From an uncultured Anaerolineae bacterium (GTDB lineage Bacteria > Chloroflexota > Anaerolineae > JACIWP01): a stretch of DNA of 33,973 bases. Shown here one piece after another: positions 8,049-17,356 of this stretch. The stretch is taken from assembly GCA_938049385.1 (NCBI GenBank), contig CALIBQ010000038.1, positions 1 to 33,973 on the forward strand. Direction: 5' to 3'. The notes under the pieces are model-generated. The model ran no database searches and was not told the DNA's origin. It was given only the letters and a program-made list of their open reading frames with translations. A program made the position numbers and the translations under genes. Every line of letters starts with the position of its first letter. The stretch's first letter is position 1.

Positions 8049-9971
8049 TTACGGCCTTGCATGGCGCAGGACACGGGGGAAATAGTAGACCTCGCGCGGC
8101 GGATACCGCAGAGTGAAGAGGCCGCCGGCGCCGTCCGCAACAGCAATGTAATTGCCCCGCACTGCAATCCCTCTGCCATCCCCGGGGGTATCATAATGGC
8201 CGACCCAGGAGCCATGGAATCCGCCGGACCAGATATACGCACCCCGATCCAGCGTGGACACATACACCCGGCCGCCCGCCATCACGACATCGGATGGAAA
8301 CTCTGGCCAGTAGGTCGGTTGTCTTGCTACTGCTGGATGGGCGGGATCGGAGATATCCACCCATACCAGGCCGGCATAGTGTGAAACCACAACGACCAGG
8401 GAGCCGGAGACGGCGATCGCCTGCGGAATACCCGGCACCAGTACATCGCCGATGCCGGCAGGATGATTCGGGTCGGAAATGTCCACGACGGCAAGGTCAT
8501 TGCCAAACAGCACCAATGCAAGGGCCCCTGCCGTTTCTACATCTACTGCGCCCCAGGTTTCGCGAAATGTTCCTACCACGGCCGGCGCCGTCGGGTCCGA
8601 GATATCCACGACCTGAAGGCCGCCGAAATAGCGGTTCGCCACATAGGCATAACCCCCATTCACGGCCACCGCCCAAGCTTCTCCTGGCAGAATGACAGAC
8701 CCCTTCTCTATCGGGGAGCTGGGTACCGAAACGTCCATCACCCTCAATCCCCCGGTCCCATCCGCTACGCAGGCTGTTCCATCCTGCACCACAATCCCTC
8801 TGGCTTCCCCGGGCGTATCGAGAGCGCCGGCAGGGATGGGGCGAGACCAATCCGACACATTCACCACCTGCAGGCCGGCTGTCCCCGCCAGCACGTATGC
8901 AAACTGGCCAGATACTGCGGCATCCGCCGCATAGCCCAACGAGCGGTAGAAACCAACCTCTGCCGGTGATGCTGCATCAGAGACGTCCACCACGCGCAGG
9001 CCGGCCTCCCCATCTGCCAGCCACGCATAATCCCCTACCACAGCCAGCTCTCTGGAACTGCCCGGAGAATCGAACCAGCCCACGAGGCCAGGATCACCCG
9101 CATCAGAGACATCCACGATCCATAATCCCCCACCTTCATCCGTTACAAAGGCATAACCGTTTGCCACAGCGACAGACGTTGCGAAGCCGGGTAGGGGAAG
9201 CTGACTGATGGGCTGAGGCGCCGCTGGAGCGGAGATGTCCAGGATATACAGGCCGGCGTCCCTCGCCGCCACATACGCCAGATTGCCTTGCACTACCACA
9301 CCCATCGCCATGCCAGGGAGCAAAGCGGCCCCAATTTCCACCGGCGCGCTCGGGGCGGAAATGTCCAGCACCCGCAGTCCTGCTTCCCTATCAGCGAGAT
9401 AGGCAAGGGCATCCGCAACAACCACATCCTCTGCATAGCCAGGAGAGTCATACCGGCCGGCTTCGACGGGATGCGCCGGATCGGCAGCATTCACCACGCG
9501 CAGCCCCGCCTCGCCGTCGGCCAGATAGACATGGTTTCCCGCTACCTTCACGGCAGAGGCAGTTCCAGGTGAGTCATAGAAGCCCAGGAGAGCCGGAGAG
9601 GCTGGGTCGGAAACATCCAGTATTCGCAGTCCGCCGGCCAACTGCTGAAGCCCATTCTCCTCCCACACGCTCAAGGGAAGCTCAGCGATGTAAGCGATGC
9701 CGTCAGTCACCGCGATACCCGATATGATGCCGGCCAGCACCTCGGACGTTCCGAGGACCGCCGGATGTGCCGGCTTCGATACGTCGAGGATCACCAGCCG
9801 TGGGCCAACGCCAATGAGCGCATAATGACTCTGAACCGTCACGGCATATGTGGAACCGCCGAGCTGGCCGACTAGCCCGACATTCTCCGCCGGCGCCTGG
9901 GCGCCGGCCATTGTGCCCATCAGCAGGCTCAGAATGAGCGCCATCCCCAAAACGCGTGCCCCCTTCATCAT
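8049..9971 (-). CDS. Secreted LVIVD-repeat beta-propeller protein with 14 repeats
   Basis: A 640-residue exported protein. An N-terminal signal peptide (about 1-25, ending AGAQA) is followed almost wholly by LVIVD repeats of the form L-x-hydrophobic-V-D-[VI]-S-x-P. Repeat signatures start near residues 59, 115, 157, 199, 241, 283, 325, 367, 409, 452, 493, 535, 578 and 618. From 115 to 409 the spacing is exactly 42 residues; the last two copies are degenerate. Between the first and second copies there is a 14-residue insertion containing SVWEENG. LVIVD repeats are thought to form beta-propeller blades, so 14 would fit two seven-bladed propellers (inference). The protein ends in VYYFPRVLR plus a few residues. 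The start is one of two adjacent ATGs behind GGGAGGGAG. The ligand or function is unknown. Confidence 0.9.
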   Translation of the reverse strand: MMKGARVLGMALILSLLMGTMAGAQAPAENVGLVGQLGGSTYAVTVQSHYALIGVGPRLVILDVSKPAHPAVLGTSEVLAGIISGIAVTDGIAYIAELPLSVWEENGLQQLAGGLRILDVSDPASPALLGFYDSPGTASAVKVAGNHVYLADGEAGLRVVNAADPAHPVEAGRYDSPGYAEDVVVADALAYLADREAGLRVLDISAPSAPVEIGAALLPGMAMGVVVQGNLAYVAARDAGLYILDISAPAAPQPISQLPLPGFATSVAVANGYAFVTDEGGGLWIVDVSDAGDPGLVGWFDSPGSSRELAVVGDYAWLADGEAGLRVVDVSDAASPAEVGFYRSLGYAADAAVSGQFAYVLAGTAGLQVVNVSDWSRPIPAGALDTPGEARGIVVQDGTACVADGTGGLRVMDVSVPSSPIEKGSVILPGEAWAVAVNGGYAYVANRYFGGLQVVDISDPTAPAVVGTFRETWGAVDVETAGALALVLFGNDLAVVDISDPNHPAGIGDVLVPGIPQAIAVSGSLVVVVSHYAGLVWVDISDPAHPAVARQPTYWPEFPSDVVMAGGRVYVSTLDRGAYIWSGGFHGSWVGHYDTPGDGRGIAVRGNYIAVADGAGGLFTLRYPPREVYYFPRVLRHARP

Positions 9972-10253: not shown

Positions 10254-10337
10254 GGCCTGGCGGCTGAAGCCACGGCGACAACCAACTGTGAAGCCCGCCT
10301 ATGCAGGCTTCGCGAAGTCGGCGCAGGCCGACTTCGC
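10254..10337. repeat. Composite palindromic repeat upstream of cimA
   Basis: It starts with a 23-base unit (10254-10276, core CTGGCGGCTGAAGCC) matching the reverse complement of 31194-31216 at 22 of 23 positions. Then comes GAAGCC/GGCTTC (near 10290-10311) and a perfect 11-bp hairpin, 10312-10322 with 10327-10337 (arms GCGAAGTCGGC / GCCGACTTCGC, loop GCAG). This is a dispersed intergenic repeat with no coding content. Confidence 0.65.
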
Positions 10338-10410
10338 AGGCACAGCCGCAGTTTCAACTGCTAGGTGATGAGCCAATATCCGCTTTTTCAACACATCCGA
10401 AATACCCCAC

Positions 10411-10439
10411 TTGACGAAACCACGGATTTATGCTATACA
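10411..10439 (+). promoter_or_regulatory. Promoter of the cimA leader and cimA
   Basis: TTGACG (10411-10416), 17-base spacer, TATACA (10434-10439), with an extended -10 TG at 10431-10432. Transcription should start near 10446. That places the leader peptide, attenuator and cimA on one transcript with a leader of about 340 bases. Confidence 0.8.
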
Positions 10440-10500
10440 TTTAATAGAAGTTCGACTTTAGTCTGTACAGTACGAGTTGTGCGCCAGCAAAGAGGGTAGA

Positions 10501-10611
10501 ATGTCAGCCGGCCTTATCGCTTCTCCCAACAGCATCATTATTCGCATTATTGCGGGCATCTCCATTAGCATTATTCGCTACATGGAGACGCTGGCGGTTG
10601 GGAGAGAGTAG
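10501..10611 (+). CDS. Isoleucine-rich attenuation leader peptide of cimA
   Basis: A 36-codon open frame from ATG 10501 to TAG 10609-10611, with AGAGGG at 10491-10496 as ribosome site. Ten residues are isoleucine: codons 6, 12, 13, 14, 16, 17, 20, 22, 24 and 25 (seven ATT, three ATC). There are only two Leu and one Val, so the reading is isoleucine-specific. The Ile run sits between two RNA segments that pair with each other, and the stop codon lies a few bases after the second. It stands between a good promoter and an intrinsic terminator upstream of citramalate synthase, whose pathway leads to isoleucine. The peptide is almost certainly a ribosome-position sensor, not a functional protein. 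Confidence 0.92.
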   Translation: MSAGLIASPNSIIIRIIAGISISIIRYMETLAVGRE

Positions 10612-10678
10612 CGGCTGACAAACACCATCAAGACATCATACAGCCCACCGGTTCTCCCAACCGGTGGGTTTTTATTTT
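10502..10678 (+). promoter_or_regulatory. Transcription attenuator sensing isoleucine supply
   Basis: Four mutually exclusive RNA segments are visible. Segment 1 (10502-10510 plus 10522-10530) pairs with segment 2 (10597-10605 plus 10612-10620) in two 9-bp helices enclosing the Ile codons. Segment 2 (10595-10605, core GGTTGGGAGA) can instead pair 11 bp with segment 3 (10653-10663). Segment 3 is also part of the terminator hairpin. Expected logic, as in the known ilv and trp attenuators: with scarce Ile-tRNA the ribosome stalls near codons 12-17 and masks segment 1, so 2:3 forms and cimA is read. With enough Ile the ribosome reaches the stop at 10609, masks segment 2, and the terminator forms. 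Confidence 0.88.
10644..10678 (+). terminator. Intrinsic terminator of the cimA attenuator
   Basis: A perfect 10-bp stem, 10644-10653 (CCCACCGGTT) with 10659-10668, loop CTCCC, then the tract TTTTTATTTT at 10669-10678. The loop and 3' arm are the bases that the antiterminator would take up. Confidence 0.92.
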
Positions 10679-10706
10679 GGCACTTGACCCTGCGGAGGTC
10701 ACTGGC

Positions 10707-10759
10707 AAAGGCGCTCTCATCGCCGGCATGTCGCCGGCGGGGGCGCCTTTTGTGTTTTC
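10707..10759 (+). terminator. Second terminator-like hairpin just before cimA
   Basis: Outer stem AAAGGCGC (10707-10714) with GCGCCTTT (10743-10750), inner stem CGCCGGC (10721-10727) with GCCGGCG (10733-10739), then TTTTGTGTTTT. It lies between the attenuator and the cimA ribosome site, so any read-through transcript must pass it. A small TGACC/GGTCA stem (10685-10701) precedes it. Confidence 0.6.
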
Positions 10760-10787
10760 ACCATTTTGATAGCTTTGGGAGGGGAAC

Positions 10788-12378: not shown

Positions 12379-12407
12379 GGCCAGGCCCATGACTCATGGA
12401 CCTGGCC
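12379..12407. terminator. Bidirectional hairpin after cimA
   Basis: GGCCAGG (12379-12385) with CCTGGCC (12401-12407) and CCATG (12387-12391) with CATGG (12395-12399), one mismatch between the stems and a 3-base loop. It lies between the convergent cimA and lipoprotein genes, 22 bases from each stop. CTTGTGTGTGT follows on the plus strand, so the T-tract is poor. Confidence 0.65.
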
Positions 12408-12428
12408 CTTGTGTGTGTCCGACAGCGG

Positions 12429-13553
12429 CTATTCCGCCTTCTCGATGGAAATCATCACCGAGAGGGCGCCGGTGCTCTGGTCTGGGGATATCATCACCGA
12501 TACCTTCGCCTTATCACCCTGAAACTCGAGGGAGGCAAAGGCGTCGGTGGTCATGCTGGAGTCTTCCGCAAATTTCAGCCCCTGGTCGGTGAAGCCCCTC
12601 TTGTAGAACTCAGCCGCCTCCGCCATGGTCATGCCGGCCACGGTGTACATGACCATGCCCTCCTGGGACCAGGCCCGTTTGGCACCGGCCGGCTCCGGGA
12701 TGGTGAAGCCCAGGCCTTCCGTCGGAGACGGCATGGACGGCGCGGCGATCTCAATCTTGGCGTTCAGGTCGTACACCTCGAAGGTGGTCTTGATCTCGCC
12801 GGCCAGGTCCGGTTTGTTCTCGTCCACGCCCTTGCCGGCCATGTGGGTGACCATCTTGACGATGTACCCCTCATCCGCCAGATAGATGTCAATCTGGGCG
12901 ATATCCAGGTTCTCATATCTGGCGCGCGTCTCTTCATCGAACATGAACTTCAGCAAGGCCGGCTTATCGAAGCGGTAATGCGTGGTGTCGATGTTGTTCA
13001 CCTTTTCTTTGCCGATCTTGGTGGCGGCTTCCCAACCTTCCGTTAAGTCCTCCGAATGGAAGACCATGAACTGCTCATCGAAATCGGGAAGCGCTTCCTG
13101 GGTGGACTGCATCCAGCTACCACCAAACTTGATCCAGCTCTCGTTGCCGATCTGGATCATCTCCATGGAATCCTCTGGCGTGGCGCCGCTGATGACATAG
13201 CGAACCGCAGGCGGTTCTTTGACGAACTCGCCGATCATCTCCATATTGGCGCCTTGCTGGTCCGCAAAGGCCTCGCCCGTAGCCTCAATTTTCATGCGCA
13301 CCCGATACGATTTCAGCCACGGCATTTTGGAGACATCCTCGACTACCGCCGGCGTCTCAGTGGGAGCGGGCGCCGGCGTGTTGGTAGGCGGCACTGGGGT
13401 AGGGGTTGGCTGAGCCGGTGCTTGCTTGGCAGTGGTGGCCTGCGCGGCGGGGGTCTCGCCGGCCGGCGCCGTCGCCTTGCCGCCGCATCCAACCAGCAAG
13501 GCCAGGATCATCAGGGCCGTAAGGGTCAGGACAGCAAGTCTTCGTGCGGACAT
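12429..13553 (-). CDS. Surface lipoprotein with Pro/Thr linker, function unknown
   Basis: A 374-residue predicted lipoprotein. The signal peptide has a lipobox ending LLVGC with C23. Residues about 24-72 are an Ala/Pro/Thr-rich tether. Residues about 80-285 resemble the LppX/LolA-type half-barrel lipoproteins in general character (repeated beta strands such as YRVRMKIEATGEA, M-E-M-I-Q-I-G-N, YIVKMVTHMAGKG). I would not claim that family firmly. A last segment (about 290-374) carries a pattern seen in small alpha/beta surface domains (AEAAEFYKRGFTDQGLK, then KAKVSVMIS). It would sit on the outer face of the cytoplasmic membrane. ATG 13553 follows CCAGGAGG. A good promoter lies 130 bases upstream, so it is transcribed alone. 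Confidence 0.85.
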   Translation of the reverse strand: MSARRLAVLTLTALMILALLVGCGGKATAPAGETPAAQATTAKQAPAQPTPTPVPPTNTPAPAPTETPAVVEDVSKMPWLKSYRVRMKIEATGEAFADQQGANMEMIGEFVKEPPAVRYVISGATPEDSMEMIQIGNESWIKFGGSWMQSTQEALPDFDEQFMVFHSEDLTEGWEAATKIGKEKVNNIDTTHYRFDKPALLKFMFDEETRARYENLDIAQIDIYLADEGYIVKMVTHMAGKGVDENKPDLAGEIKTTFEVYDLNAKIEIAAPSMPSPTEGLGFTIPEPAGAKRAWSQEGMVMYTVAGMTMAEAAEFYKRGFTDQGLKFAEDSSMTTDAFASLEFQGDKAKVSVMISPDQSTGALSVMISIEKAE

Positions 13554-13686
13554 ACGTGTTCCTCCTGGGGTACTGCGGAATATAGGCCTGGGCTAACCAT
13601 CCCGACAACCCCAGGCTTCCGCGAGGGAGGAAAGGGGAGTCCGTGCTGGTGAAGCTCAGGCAAACATGCCAACGTTACTGCATACT

Positions 13687-15051: not shown

Positions 15052-16110
15052 CTATTTTTGCACGAAATCGCGCACGCGCTGACTGCGGGAGGGGTGGCGC
15101 AGCCGGCGCAGGGCCTTGGACTCGATCTGCCGCACGCGCTCGCGGGTGATGCCGAGCTTCTCCCCCACCTCTTTCAAGGTGTAACTGCGGCCGTCCACGA
15201 AGCCGAAGCGCAGGCGGATGATTTCCGCCTCGCGCGGCTTCAAGTGCTCCAGCAGTTTGGCGACTTCCTGCTTCAGCAGGGTCTGTGAGGCTTTCTCCGT
15301 GGGGGAGGAGACATCATCATCCTGGACGAAATCACCCAAGGAGTTATCGCCGTCCTCGCCGATAGGAGTTTCCAGGGAGACAGTATGGCGGGCGATGCGG
15401 CGCAGCCAGCGCACGCGGCTGAGTGCCATGCCAAGCTCCTGGGCAATTTCCTCATCAGTGGGCTGGCGGCCCAGCCGGTCATTGAGGACTTCTTCGGTGT
15501 TATGGAGCCGGCGGATCTCCTCATGGATATGCACCGGCAGGCGGATGGTACGCCCTTGGTCGGAGAGAGCGCGCGTGATGGCCTGGCGGATCCACCAAGT
15601 GGCATACGTGCTGAAGCGGGTGCCGCGGCGGTAGTCAAATTTGTCGGCGGCCCGCATCAGCCCCAGGTTGCCCTCCTGGATAAGGTCGCTGAAGGGGATG
15701 CCCCAGCCCCGATAGCGTTTGGCAATCTGAATCACCAGCCGGGTGTTGGCGCGGATCAGATGGTCGCGCGCTCGGTTGCCTTCGCGCACCTTTTCCGCCA
15801 GCCATCTGCGCTCTTCTTCCGTTAGGTGTTCGTCGCTGGCCAGCCGCTCCAAGGCCTCGCGGCCTTCGGCCATGCGGCGGGCAAACTCCTCCTCCTGCTC
15901 GGGGGTGAGCAGGGGGGTCCGGCTCATGTCGCGCAAATAGAGCCGGATGGGGTCGGGGCTTTCGTCGCCGGCTTCTTCCAGCTCGGCCTCGTCCTCCTCA
16001 TCCTCATCCGGTTCCTCGTTCATATCGAAGGACTCGCCTGGAAGCTCCTCGTCCTCTAAACCGTCCAGGCCAAGCTCTTCGAGAAGGTCTTCGTCCCCTG
16101 GGTCCATCAT
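15052..16110 (-). CDS. RNA polymerase sigma factor, RpoD-like, short acidic N-terminus
   Basis: A 352-residue sigma70-family protein that directs RNA polymerase to promoters. The N-terminus (about 1-52) is strongly acidic and lacks a recognisable region 1.1. Region 1.2 starts at DPIRLYLRDM (about 53-62). Region 2 has NLGLMRAADKFDYRRGTRFSTYATWWIRQAI, broken here as about 148-164 and 165-178. Region 4.2 ends with YTLKEVGEKLGITRERVRQI (about 310-329). The start could be the GTG at 16113 or either of two ATGs at 16110 and 16107; AGGA lies upstream. It is the second gene of a two-sigma operon, 25 bases after its paralogue. It is probably an alternative group-2 factor with overlapping promoter choice (inference). 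Confidence 0.92.
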   Translation of the reverse strand: MMDPGDEDLLEELGLDGLEDEELPGESFDMNEEPDEDEEDEAELEEAGDESPDPIRLYLRDMSRTPLLTPEQEEEFARRMAEGREALERLASDEHLTEEERRWLAEKVREGNRARDHLIRANTRLVIQIAKRYRGWGIPFSDLIQEGNLGLMRAADKFDYRRGTRFSTYATWWIRQAITRALSDQGRTIRLPVHIHEEIRRLHNTEEVLNDRLGRQPTDEEIAQELGMALSRVRWLRRIARHTVSLETPIGEDGDNSLGDFVQDDDVSSPTEKASQTLLKQEVAKLLEHLKPREAEIIRLRFGFVDGRSYTLKEVGEKLGITRERVRQIESKALRRLRHPSRSQRVRDFVQK

Positions 16111-16135
16111 CACAGGCCCGATTCCTATTTGCTGA

Positions 16136-17356
16136 TTACAGGAATCCCTTTAACTGCCGACTGCGGTGTGGATGGCGAAGCCGGCACAGCGCCTGCGCCT
16201 CAATCTGGCGTATGCGCTCCCGCGTGACGCCGAACTTGCGCCCTACCTCCTCTAAAGTATACGTCCGACCGTCCACAAAGCCAAATCGCAGTCGGAGGAT
16301 GCGCGCCTGCTTGGGTGTCAATGTGTCGAGCAGTTGCTCCAGCTTCTCGCGCAGGAGCTCGCGGTTGGCCACGTCCATGGGCGCCGGCGATTGGGTGTCC
16401 TCGATAAAATGTCCCAGCTCGCTCTCCTCGTCCTCCCCCACCGGTTTGTGGAGGGAAAGGGTGTCGGAGGAGATGCGCAGCATCCATTCTACACGAGTGA
16501 CGGGCATTTGCAAACGCTCTGCCAGCTCCTCGGGGGTAGGGGGCCGGCCCAGCTCCTGCTCCATATCGCGCGCCGTGCGGAAAAGCTTGCGCAGTCGGTC
16601 GCCCATATGCACCGGCAGGCGGATGACCCGCCCCTGGTCCGCCAGGGCGCGGGTGATGGCCTGGCGGATCCACCAGGTGGCATAGGTGGAGAACTTGAAC
16701 CCACGCCGGTAGTCGAATTTGGAGACGGCGCGCATAAGGCCCAGGTTGCCTTCCTGGATCAGGTCGGGGAAGGGGACCCCACGGCCAACGTAGTGTTTGG
16801 CCACGCTGATGACCAGGCGGGTGTTGGCACGGATAAGCCGGTCGCGCGCTTCCCGGCCCTTCTGAACGATTTGCCGCAGGGCTTCTCGTTCCTCGTCGCT
16901 GAGGTTGCCGTTCTGGCCGGCCAGCCGCTGGGCGGCCACGCGCCCATCAAACACCGCCCGCGCCAGCTCTCTCTCTTCCTCCGGGGTGAGCAGGGGATAC
17001 TGGCTCATCTCGCGGAAGTAGAGCGTCACCGTGTCGCTGAGCGGGCCTTCGTCCAGATATTCTTCGAGGCTCTCTGGGTCCTGGTCCTCTGATTCGCCCG
17101 TCTGCCACTCGTCGTCCCAGACCGACCGGAACGCCGGCGCAGGATGTTTCGCATCTCGTTCAGCCGGCCCAACAGCCTGCTCATATACCGGGATGCGCCG
17201 CGTGTGCAGTTGAGCGAAAAATCCTTCCAGTCCCTCCCTATCCTCCTCAGGGGTGGGGCAAACCTCCAAAATCTGGTCATATGTGATGTAGCCCTGATGG
17301 GAAGCCTGTTCCAGCAGTTCTTCCAGTATTGCGTTCTCTGTTTGCTCTTCGCGCAT
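16136..17356 (-). CDS. RNA polymerase sigma factor, RpoD-like, with region 1.1
   Basis: A 406-residue sigma70-family protein. An N-terminal segment (about 1-60) looks like region 1.1, as in principal sigma factors. A short acidic stretch (about 85-105) follows. Region 1.2 begins at TVTLYFREMSQ (about 109-119). Region 2 includes the DNA-melting and -10 recognition helix FSTYATWWIRQAITRA (222-237). Region 4.2 has the helix-turn-helix LEEVGRKFGVTRERIRQIEA (368-387). It is a candidate for the housekeeping sigma, with the caution that the genome may hold others. ATG 17356 follows GTGAGGT. The promoter is perfect consensus, with a leader of about 210 bases. Confidence 0.92.
   Translation of the reverse strand: MREEQTENAILEELLEQASHQGYITYDQILEVCPTPEEDREGLEGFFAQLHTRRIPVYEQAVGPAERDAKHPAPAFRSVWDDEWQTGESEDQDPESLEEYLDEGPLSDTVTLYFREMSQYPLLTPEEERELARAVFDGRVAAQRLAGQNGNLSDEEREALRQIVQKGREARDRLIRANTRLVISVAKHYVGRGVPFPDLIQEGNLGLMRAVSKFDYRRGFKFSTYATWWIRQAITRALADQGRVIRLPVHMGDRLRKLFRTARDMEQELGRPPTPEELAERLQMPVTRVEWMLRISSDTLSLHKPVGEDEESELGHFIEDTQSPAPMDVANRELLREKLEQLLDTLTPKQARILRLRFGFVDGRTYTLEEVGRKFGVTRERIRQIEAQALCRLRHPHRSRQLKGFL

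Follow-up and report, generated by a model that had tools for sequence, protein, structure and literature searches.

In Proteobacteria, the attenuators of ilvGMEDA, ilvB and leu work by ribosome stalling and a choice among 1:2, 2:3 and 3:4 pairings that exclude one another, and we know of no attenuator of this type for cimA in that phylum. Also the T-box leader (RF00230) senses an amino acid shortage by terminator choice, with the uncharged tRNA bound directly. CimA produces citramalate in the first reaction that is dedicated to isoleucine on the way from pyruvate. The ilvBNC attenuator of Corynebacterium glutamicum encodes the leader peptide MTIIRLVVVTARRLP, and its transcription starts one nucleotide from the leader start codon (PMC11857589). 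For ilvB of Actinobacteria, comparative genomics has given candidate leaders, i.e. short ORFs with Ile/Val/Leu runs plus terminators, whose mode of regulation is unclear in that work and among which cimA is not mentioned (PMC1262725). A preliminary description of the locus studied here proposed an attenuator before a stand-alone cimA and knew of no earlier account; likewise, we found no description of attenuation in Chloroflexi or at citramalate synthase in the open-access literature, and priority is not certain. Below, the window is the whole stretch of DNA analysed, 33,973 nucleotides of an uncultured Anaerolineae bacterium (contig CALIBQ010000038.1). It is compared with the rest of its own genome (G000), a genome of the same genus (G002), genomes of another order (f4) and the one sampled genome of a third order, f3 (G004).

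The leader locus and its alternative pairings

The features of the locus are collected in Table 1. All the parts named in the preliminary description, namely promoter, ribosome site, 36-codon peptide, hairpins and terminator ahead of cimA, were recovered where it had placed them. The promoter-like site is missing from the list of our promoter scan because the strict rule of the scan on the last T failed. A palindromic repeat of ~105 bp (10275-10380) ends ~30 nt before this promoter and belongs to a set of ~40 copies with 86-93% identity spread across the own genome. The gene upstream of the leader (8049-9971) is on the opposite strand and divergent, which makes cimA promoter-proximal and means that no upstream gene ends in the terminator at 10642-10670. 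The assignment of cimA itself is clear (709 bits against TIGR00977, cut-off 450). Directly 3' of it and on the same strand, two ORFs of 216 and 198 aa (12396-13649) gave no Pfam/NCBIfam match; further on, two adjacent RpoD-like sigma factor genes occupy 15052-17356 of the minus strand.

Table 1. Features of the cimA leader in the window and of the ilvD leader in the same genome
Feature	Position	Strand	Basis or source
Promoter-like site: TTGACG (10411-10416), 17-nt spacer, TATACA (10434-10439), extended -10 TG; 9/12 consensus match	10411..10439	+	Read from sequence
SD-like AGAGGG of the leader ORF (before ATG 10501)	10491..10496	+	Read from sequence
Leader peptide ORF, 36 codons, 10 Ile (7 ATT, 3 ATC)	10501..10611	+	Translation, composition tests
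Segment 1 (TCTCCCAAC), 5' arm of the anti-antiterminator, codons 8-10, just 5' of the Ile runs	10522..10530	+	Duplex/fold analysis
Segment 2 (CGGTTGGGAGA), within the final codons of the leader peptide; partner is segment 1 or 3	10595..10605	+	Duplex/fold analysis
Segment 3 (TCTCCCAACCG), from the terminator loop into the 3' arm; pairs with segment 2 as antiterminator	10653..10663	+	Duplex analysis
Intrinsic terminator, 12-bp stem (10642-10670) and T-rich tail	10642..10678	+	Terminator scan
Second terminator-like hairpin, stem ~18 bp, 3-nt bulge, then TTTTGTGTTTT	10707..10757	+	Kept in G002
SD-like GGGAGGGG of cimA	10777..10784	+	Read from sequence
cimA, citramalate synthase, 522 aa	10788..12356	+	TIGR00977, E 3.5e-213
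ilvD leader peptide and terminator, directly before ilvD	L187 4604-4780 (contig C8, G000)		Own genome

The leader ORF encodes MSAGLIASPNSIIIRIIAGISISIIRYMETLAVGRE, and its count of ten Ile, two Leu and one Val agrees with the one on which the Ile-specific reading of the preliminary description was based. Given 5.7% Ile in the window's genes, at least 10 Ile in 36 codons would arise by chance with a probability of 2.4e-5. Also the frame is unique in the window, as it is the only one of 654 start-to-stop ORFs of 20-45 codons to have at least 22% Ile together with at least 7 Ile. The terminator has the loop CTCCC and its stem is followed by TTTATTTT; it was the single find of the terminator scan between 10000 and 11000. 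As a whole, the leader RNA folds at -89 kcal/mol, compared to -62 +/- 4.6 for its shuffles (z -5.9). Scanning it with Rfam gave no family at the gathering threshold, T-box (RF00230) and riboswitches included.

The antiterminator of 11 bp claimed earlier corresponds to a 2:3 helix of exactly this length between CGGTTGGGAGA and TCTCCCAACCG. Segment 3 consists mostly of the terminator loop plus part of the 3' arm, which refines the first description. The 1:2 pairing joins TCTCCCAAC to GTTGGGAGA (10597-10605), with a duplex p of 0.007 in the window. Segments 1 and 2 flank the Ile runs (codons 12-25), and the anti-antiterminator overlaps the control codon region. Antiterminator and terminator are mutually exclusive in the window, and a ribosome at the stop codon would mask segment 2. 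On partition-function folding of the window, the terminator probability is ~0 with the ribosome footprint at codons 7-28 and ~1 with the footprint at the end of the ORF or at codons 1-3; the terminator is restored also in the fold without ribosome. This dependence on the footprint matches what a classical attenuator needs.

Distribution and co-variation among relatives

Among named organisms, the cimA relatives in the class of the window's genome are mostly Chloroflexota, in line with Anaerolineae. We found cimA in 286 of the 396 sampled genomes of the class and examined ~110 of its upstream regions. The order f4 has the gene in 26 of 28 sampled genomes, and at all 26 loci a short Ile-bearing ORF (3-11 Ile codons, some leaders having just 3-5) and a terminator precede it. 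The same combination is present in G004, where the leader is MVGNTVPSRIIIIAIPLIIRSGALAVGTEPA, preceded by a TTGACA-17-TAGAAT site; its LAVG and the DNA TTGGCGGTTGGGA are similar to the end of the window leader. The same scan gave no Ile leader with terminator before cimA at ~80 loci in 39 other families. Short Ile-bearing ORFs, as a form of the conserved peptides that the preliminary description proposed to look for, are thus present in f4 and G004 and absent from most of the class. At the leader-less loci cimA mostly lies close behind another gene, and of the six such genes tested four were leuD, one was ilvE and one was unrelated. On the cimA tree G000, G002 and G004 fall on one part and f4 on another, and the leader-bearing rows need two changes, which well supported branches force. 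The cimA terminator is also there in G002, 111-139 nt upstream of the gene; its contig starts just upstream of this terminator and genome G001 gave no match, and the comparison within the genus thus covers no peptide. It may be noted that the leader peptides keep their Ile runs and little else.

The f4 leaders have their start codon 7-15 nt past the -10 hexamer in nearly all cases (L130-L146, L211-L217), which suggests that these peptides are probably translated from leaderless messages, unlike those of the window and G004, where the ORF is preceded by a 5' UTR that holds an SD-like site.

The pairings that the preliminary description expected to co-vary (1:2, 2:3 and 3:4) are kept in the relatives while their sequences change. 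For 25 non-redundant leaders the cognate 2:3 energy was -20.4 compared to -17.8 kcal/mol with swapped partners (z -4.7, 0/100,000 permutations), and the cognate 1:2 pairing also beat swapped partners (z -7.7, 0/100,000 permutations); two control segments in the same test were not significant (z -1.1 and -0.9). Against dinucleotide shuffles the 2:3 duplex gave a Fisher p of 2e-11 over 21 leaders, an optimistic value since the species are related; in general our pooled p-values are inflated by this relatedness and by the f4 ORFs having been picked partly with Ile in mind. Examples of the changed 2:3 sequences are CCGAATCG with CGATTCGG in G005 and CCCTGTC with GAACAGGGG in G171. Double changes (C-G, T-A, G-C) occur at most stem levels of the 25 distinct terminators. 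Most leaders have their segment 2 within or close to the final 30 nt of the ORF, with a similar register on the terminator and downstream of the Ile codons. Terminator-arm occupancy was tried as a measure of antitermination and was hardly above shuffles (Fisher p 0.036), because the arm pairs with whatever GC-rich sequence stands upstream; it was dropped for duplex energy and swap tests. In equilibrium folding of most relatives, a stalled ribosome leaves the terminator standing, and only a kinetic mechanism would allow these leaders to switch.

Isoleucine specificity, proposed mechanism and alternatives

Pooled over the cimA leaders, the 929 codons include 177 Ile (19%), 29 Leu (3%) and 52 Val (6%), compared to 5.7%, 10.9% and 8.0% in the window's genes, and 69% of the Ile codons are ATT, compared to 23% in these genes. 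The own genome offers a further comparison at ilvD (TIGR00110), which has ilvB and leuA downstream on the same strand. Its leader, MNLVNVLSLNLVIILGILVLVLIGQSLVPVGEGAR if read from its ATG, is a Leu/Val/Ile mixture and has its own terminator, AGAAGCCTCCCAACCGGGAGGCTTTT (L187 4755-4780). A separate mixed leader in the same genome makes the Ile-only composition of the cimA leader look specific, in line with the reading of the preliminary description. Similar mixed leaders precede the ilvB genes of f4, and G004 has a candidate leader before ilvD. In a further family (G134, L174), a candidate branched-chain leader MSRHGFSIILLSSSLLVIVVERVTRAEGR with a 12-bp terminator was seen 275-365 nt before ilvB. 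Regarding the pathway, no threonine deaminase of G000 passes the TIGR01127 cut-off (best 232 bits, cut-off 379), and two f4 genomes have one that does. For G000 the citramalate route may therefore be the only one to isoleucine, which does not hold for every leader-bearing species.

Considering the parts, the mutually exclusive pairings, their conservation and co-variation, and the contrast with the ilvD leader, we hold with high confidence that a classical Ile-specific ribosome-mediated transcription attenuator controls cimA, and the gene is very likely read only under isoleucine shortage. From these sequence features we infer that in the cell the leader is translated, the ribosome stalls, transcription terminates and cimA is regulated as follows. 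RNA polymerase would start near 10445, with a ribosome behind it translating the 36 leader codons. Under a shortage of charged tRNA-Ile, this ribosome would stall on Ile codons 12-25 and block the pairing of segment 1; the freed segment 2 would pair with the loop and arm of the terminator, which would then not form, and cimA would be transcribed. With plentiful Ile, the ribosome would reach the stop codon (10609-10611) and cover segment 2, and the terminator would form near 10670. If no ribosome is present, the 1:2 hairpin, to which we would also assign the role of the 'paused' hairpin, would form, and so would the terminator. Since CimA catalyses the reaction that commits pyruvate to the isoleucine route, such attenuation would amount to end-product control.

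In L078 (2206-2454), from another Chloroflexota genome, a T-box leader precedes cimA, so other RNA control of this gene exists in the phylum, and one may ask if leader and terminator are real here but are read, for instance, by a metabolite, a protein or, as in a T-box, a tRNA, with the ORF incidental. We consider this very unlikely, as no Rfam family, T-box included, reached its threshold in the window leader and the peptides preserve the Ile runs but little else. Also the position of segment 2, in most leaders within the final ORF codons and 3' of the Ile codons, is easily explained by a switch that the ribosome reads. Since short ORFs and intrinsic terminators occur commonly, the arrangement could instead be a constitutive terminator behind a non-functional ORF, decaying or insulating and without any regulation. 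That reading is hardly credible, because the divergent upstream gene leaves no transcript needing an end there, the terminator has a promoter-like site before it and a biosynthetic gene behind it, and the alternative pairings co-vary between species.

A caveat for the attenuator is the second terminator-like hairpin (10707-10757) that also stands in the path of the transcript to cimA, with the hairpin proper at 10707-10751. It was absent from the preliminary description. It has ~-33 kcal/mol and a T-rich tail, with the T tract interrupted in the window. We also considered it as a dispersed repeat and rejected this, the hairpin being single copy in G000. Its role may be weak termination at a second site, pausing or stability. 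A more elaborate possibility, adding to the attenuator reading, is a two-stage control, with the Ile attenuator first and then another switchable terminator answering to a different signal. The strength of the hairpin, its tail, its preservation in G002 and a comparably strong hairpin with TTTTTTCTT before cimA in G004 would suit such a control, and in the window the leader sequence can pair with the 5' arm of the second hairpin (p 0.02). However, the extra pairing in G004 is no better than in shuffles (p 1.0), and the leader as a partner of the second hairpin was not upheld. Also most f4 terminators are too close to cimA to leave place for a second one, and in the window the interrupted T tract also speaks against this control. 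It thus seems unlikely that cimA in the window's genus and in G004 is under a two-input attenuator with two tandem terminators, one sensing Ile shortage through the leader ribosome and one another signal.

Comparison with known attenuators

We rate the cimA attenuator as a known mechanism in a new lineage and on a new target gene. Ribosome-mediated attenuation is hereby documented, with comparative support, on the committed gene of the citramalate route and in a phylum for which we found no description in the open-access literature. Within one genome the cimA leader is Ile-only and the ilvD leader Leu/Val/Ile-mixed, so that the composition follows the end-product logic gene by gene. The lineages with a stand-alone cimA have the Ile leader and occupy two distinct places on the cimA tree, and where cimA lies close behind another gene, as in most of the class, it has no leader of its own; cimA thus offers a natural example of a gene that gained (or kept) regulation on leaving its operon.

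A T-box precedes cimA in L078, and the window has no T-box match. The logic of the window leader is shared with the ilvGMEDA, ilvB and leu attenuators of Proteobacteria, except that those have mixed branched-chain or Leu/Val leaders on other genes and here an Ile leader stands on cimA. In contrast to the Actinobacteria ilvB candidates (PMC1262725), the antiterminator pairings are supported for the cimA leaders. The C. glutamicum ilvBNC system (PMC11857589) similarly combines a short leader ORF of branched-chain amino acid codons with a terminator, an antiterminator and an anti-antiterminator, and the f4 leaders seem to be arranged like it, with the start near the leader start codon. It differs in that ilvBNC (acetohydroxyacid synthase) is read through Ile, Val and Leu codons, and the window leader is Ile-specific, stands before cimA, carries an SD-like site in a 5' UTR of its own and belongs to a different phylum.
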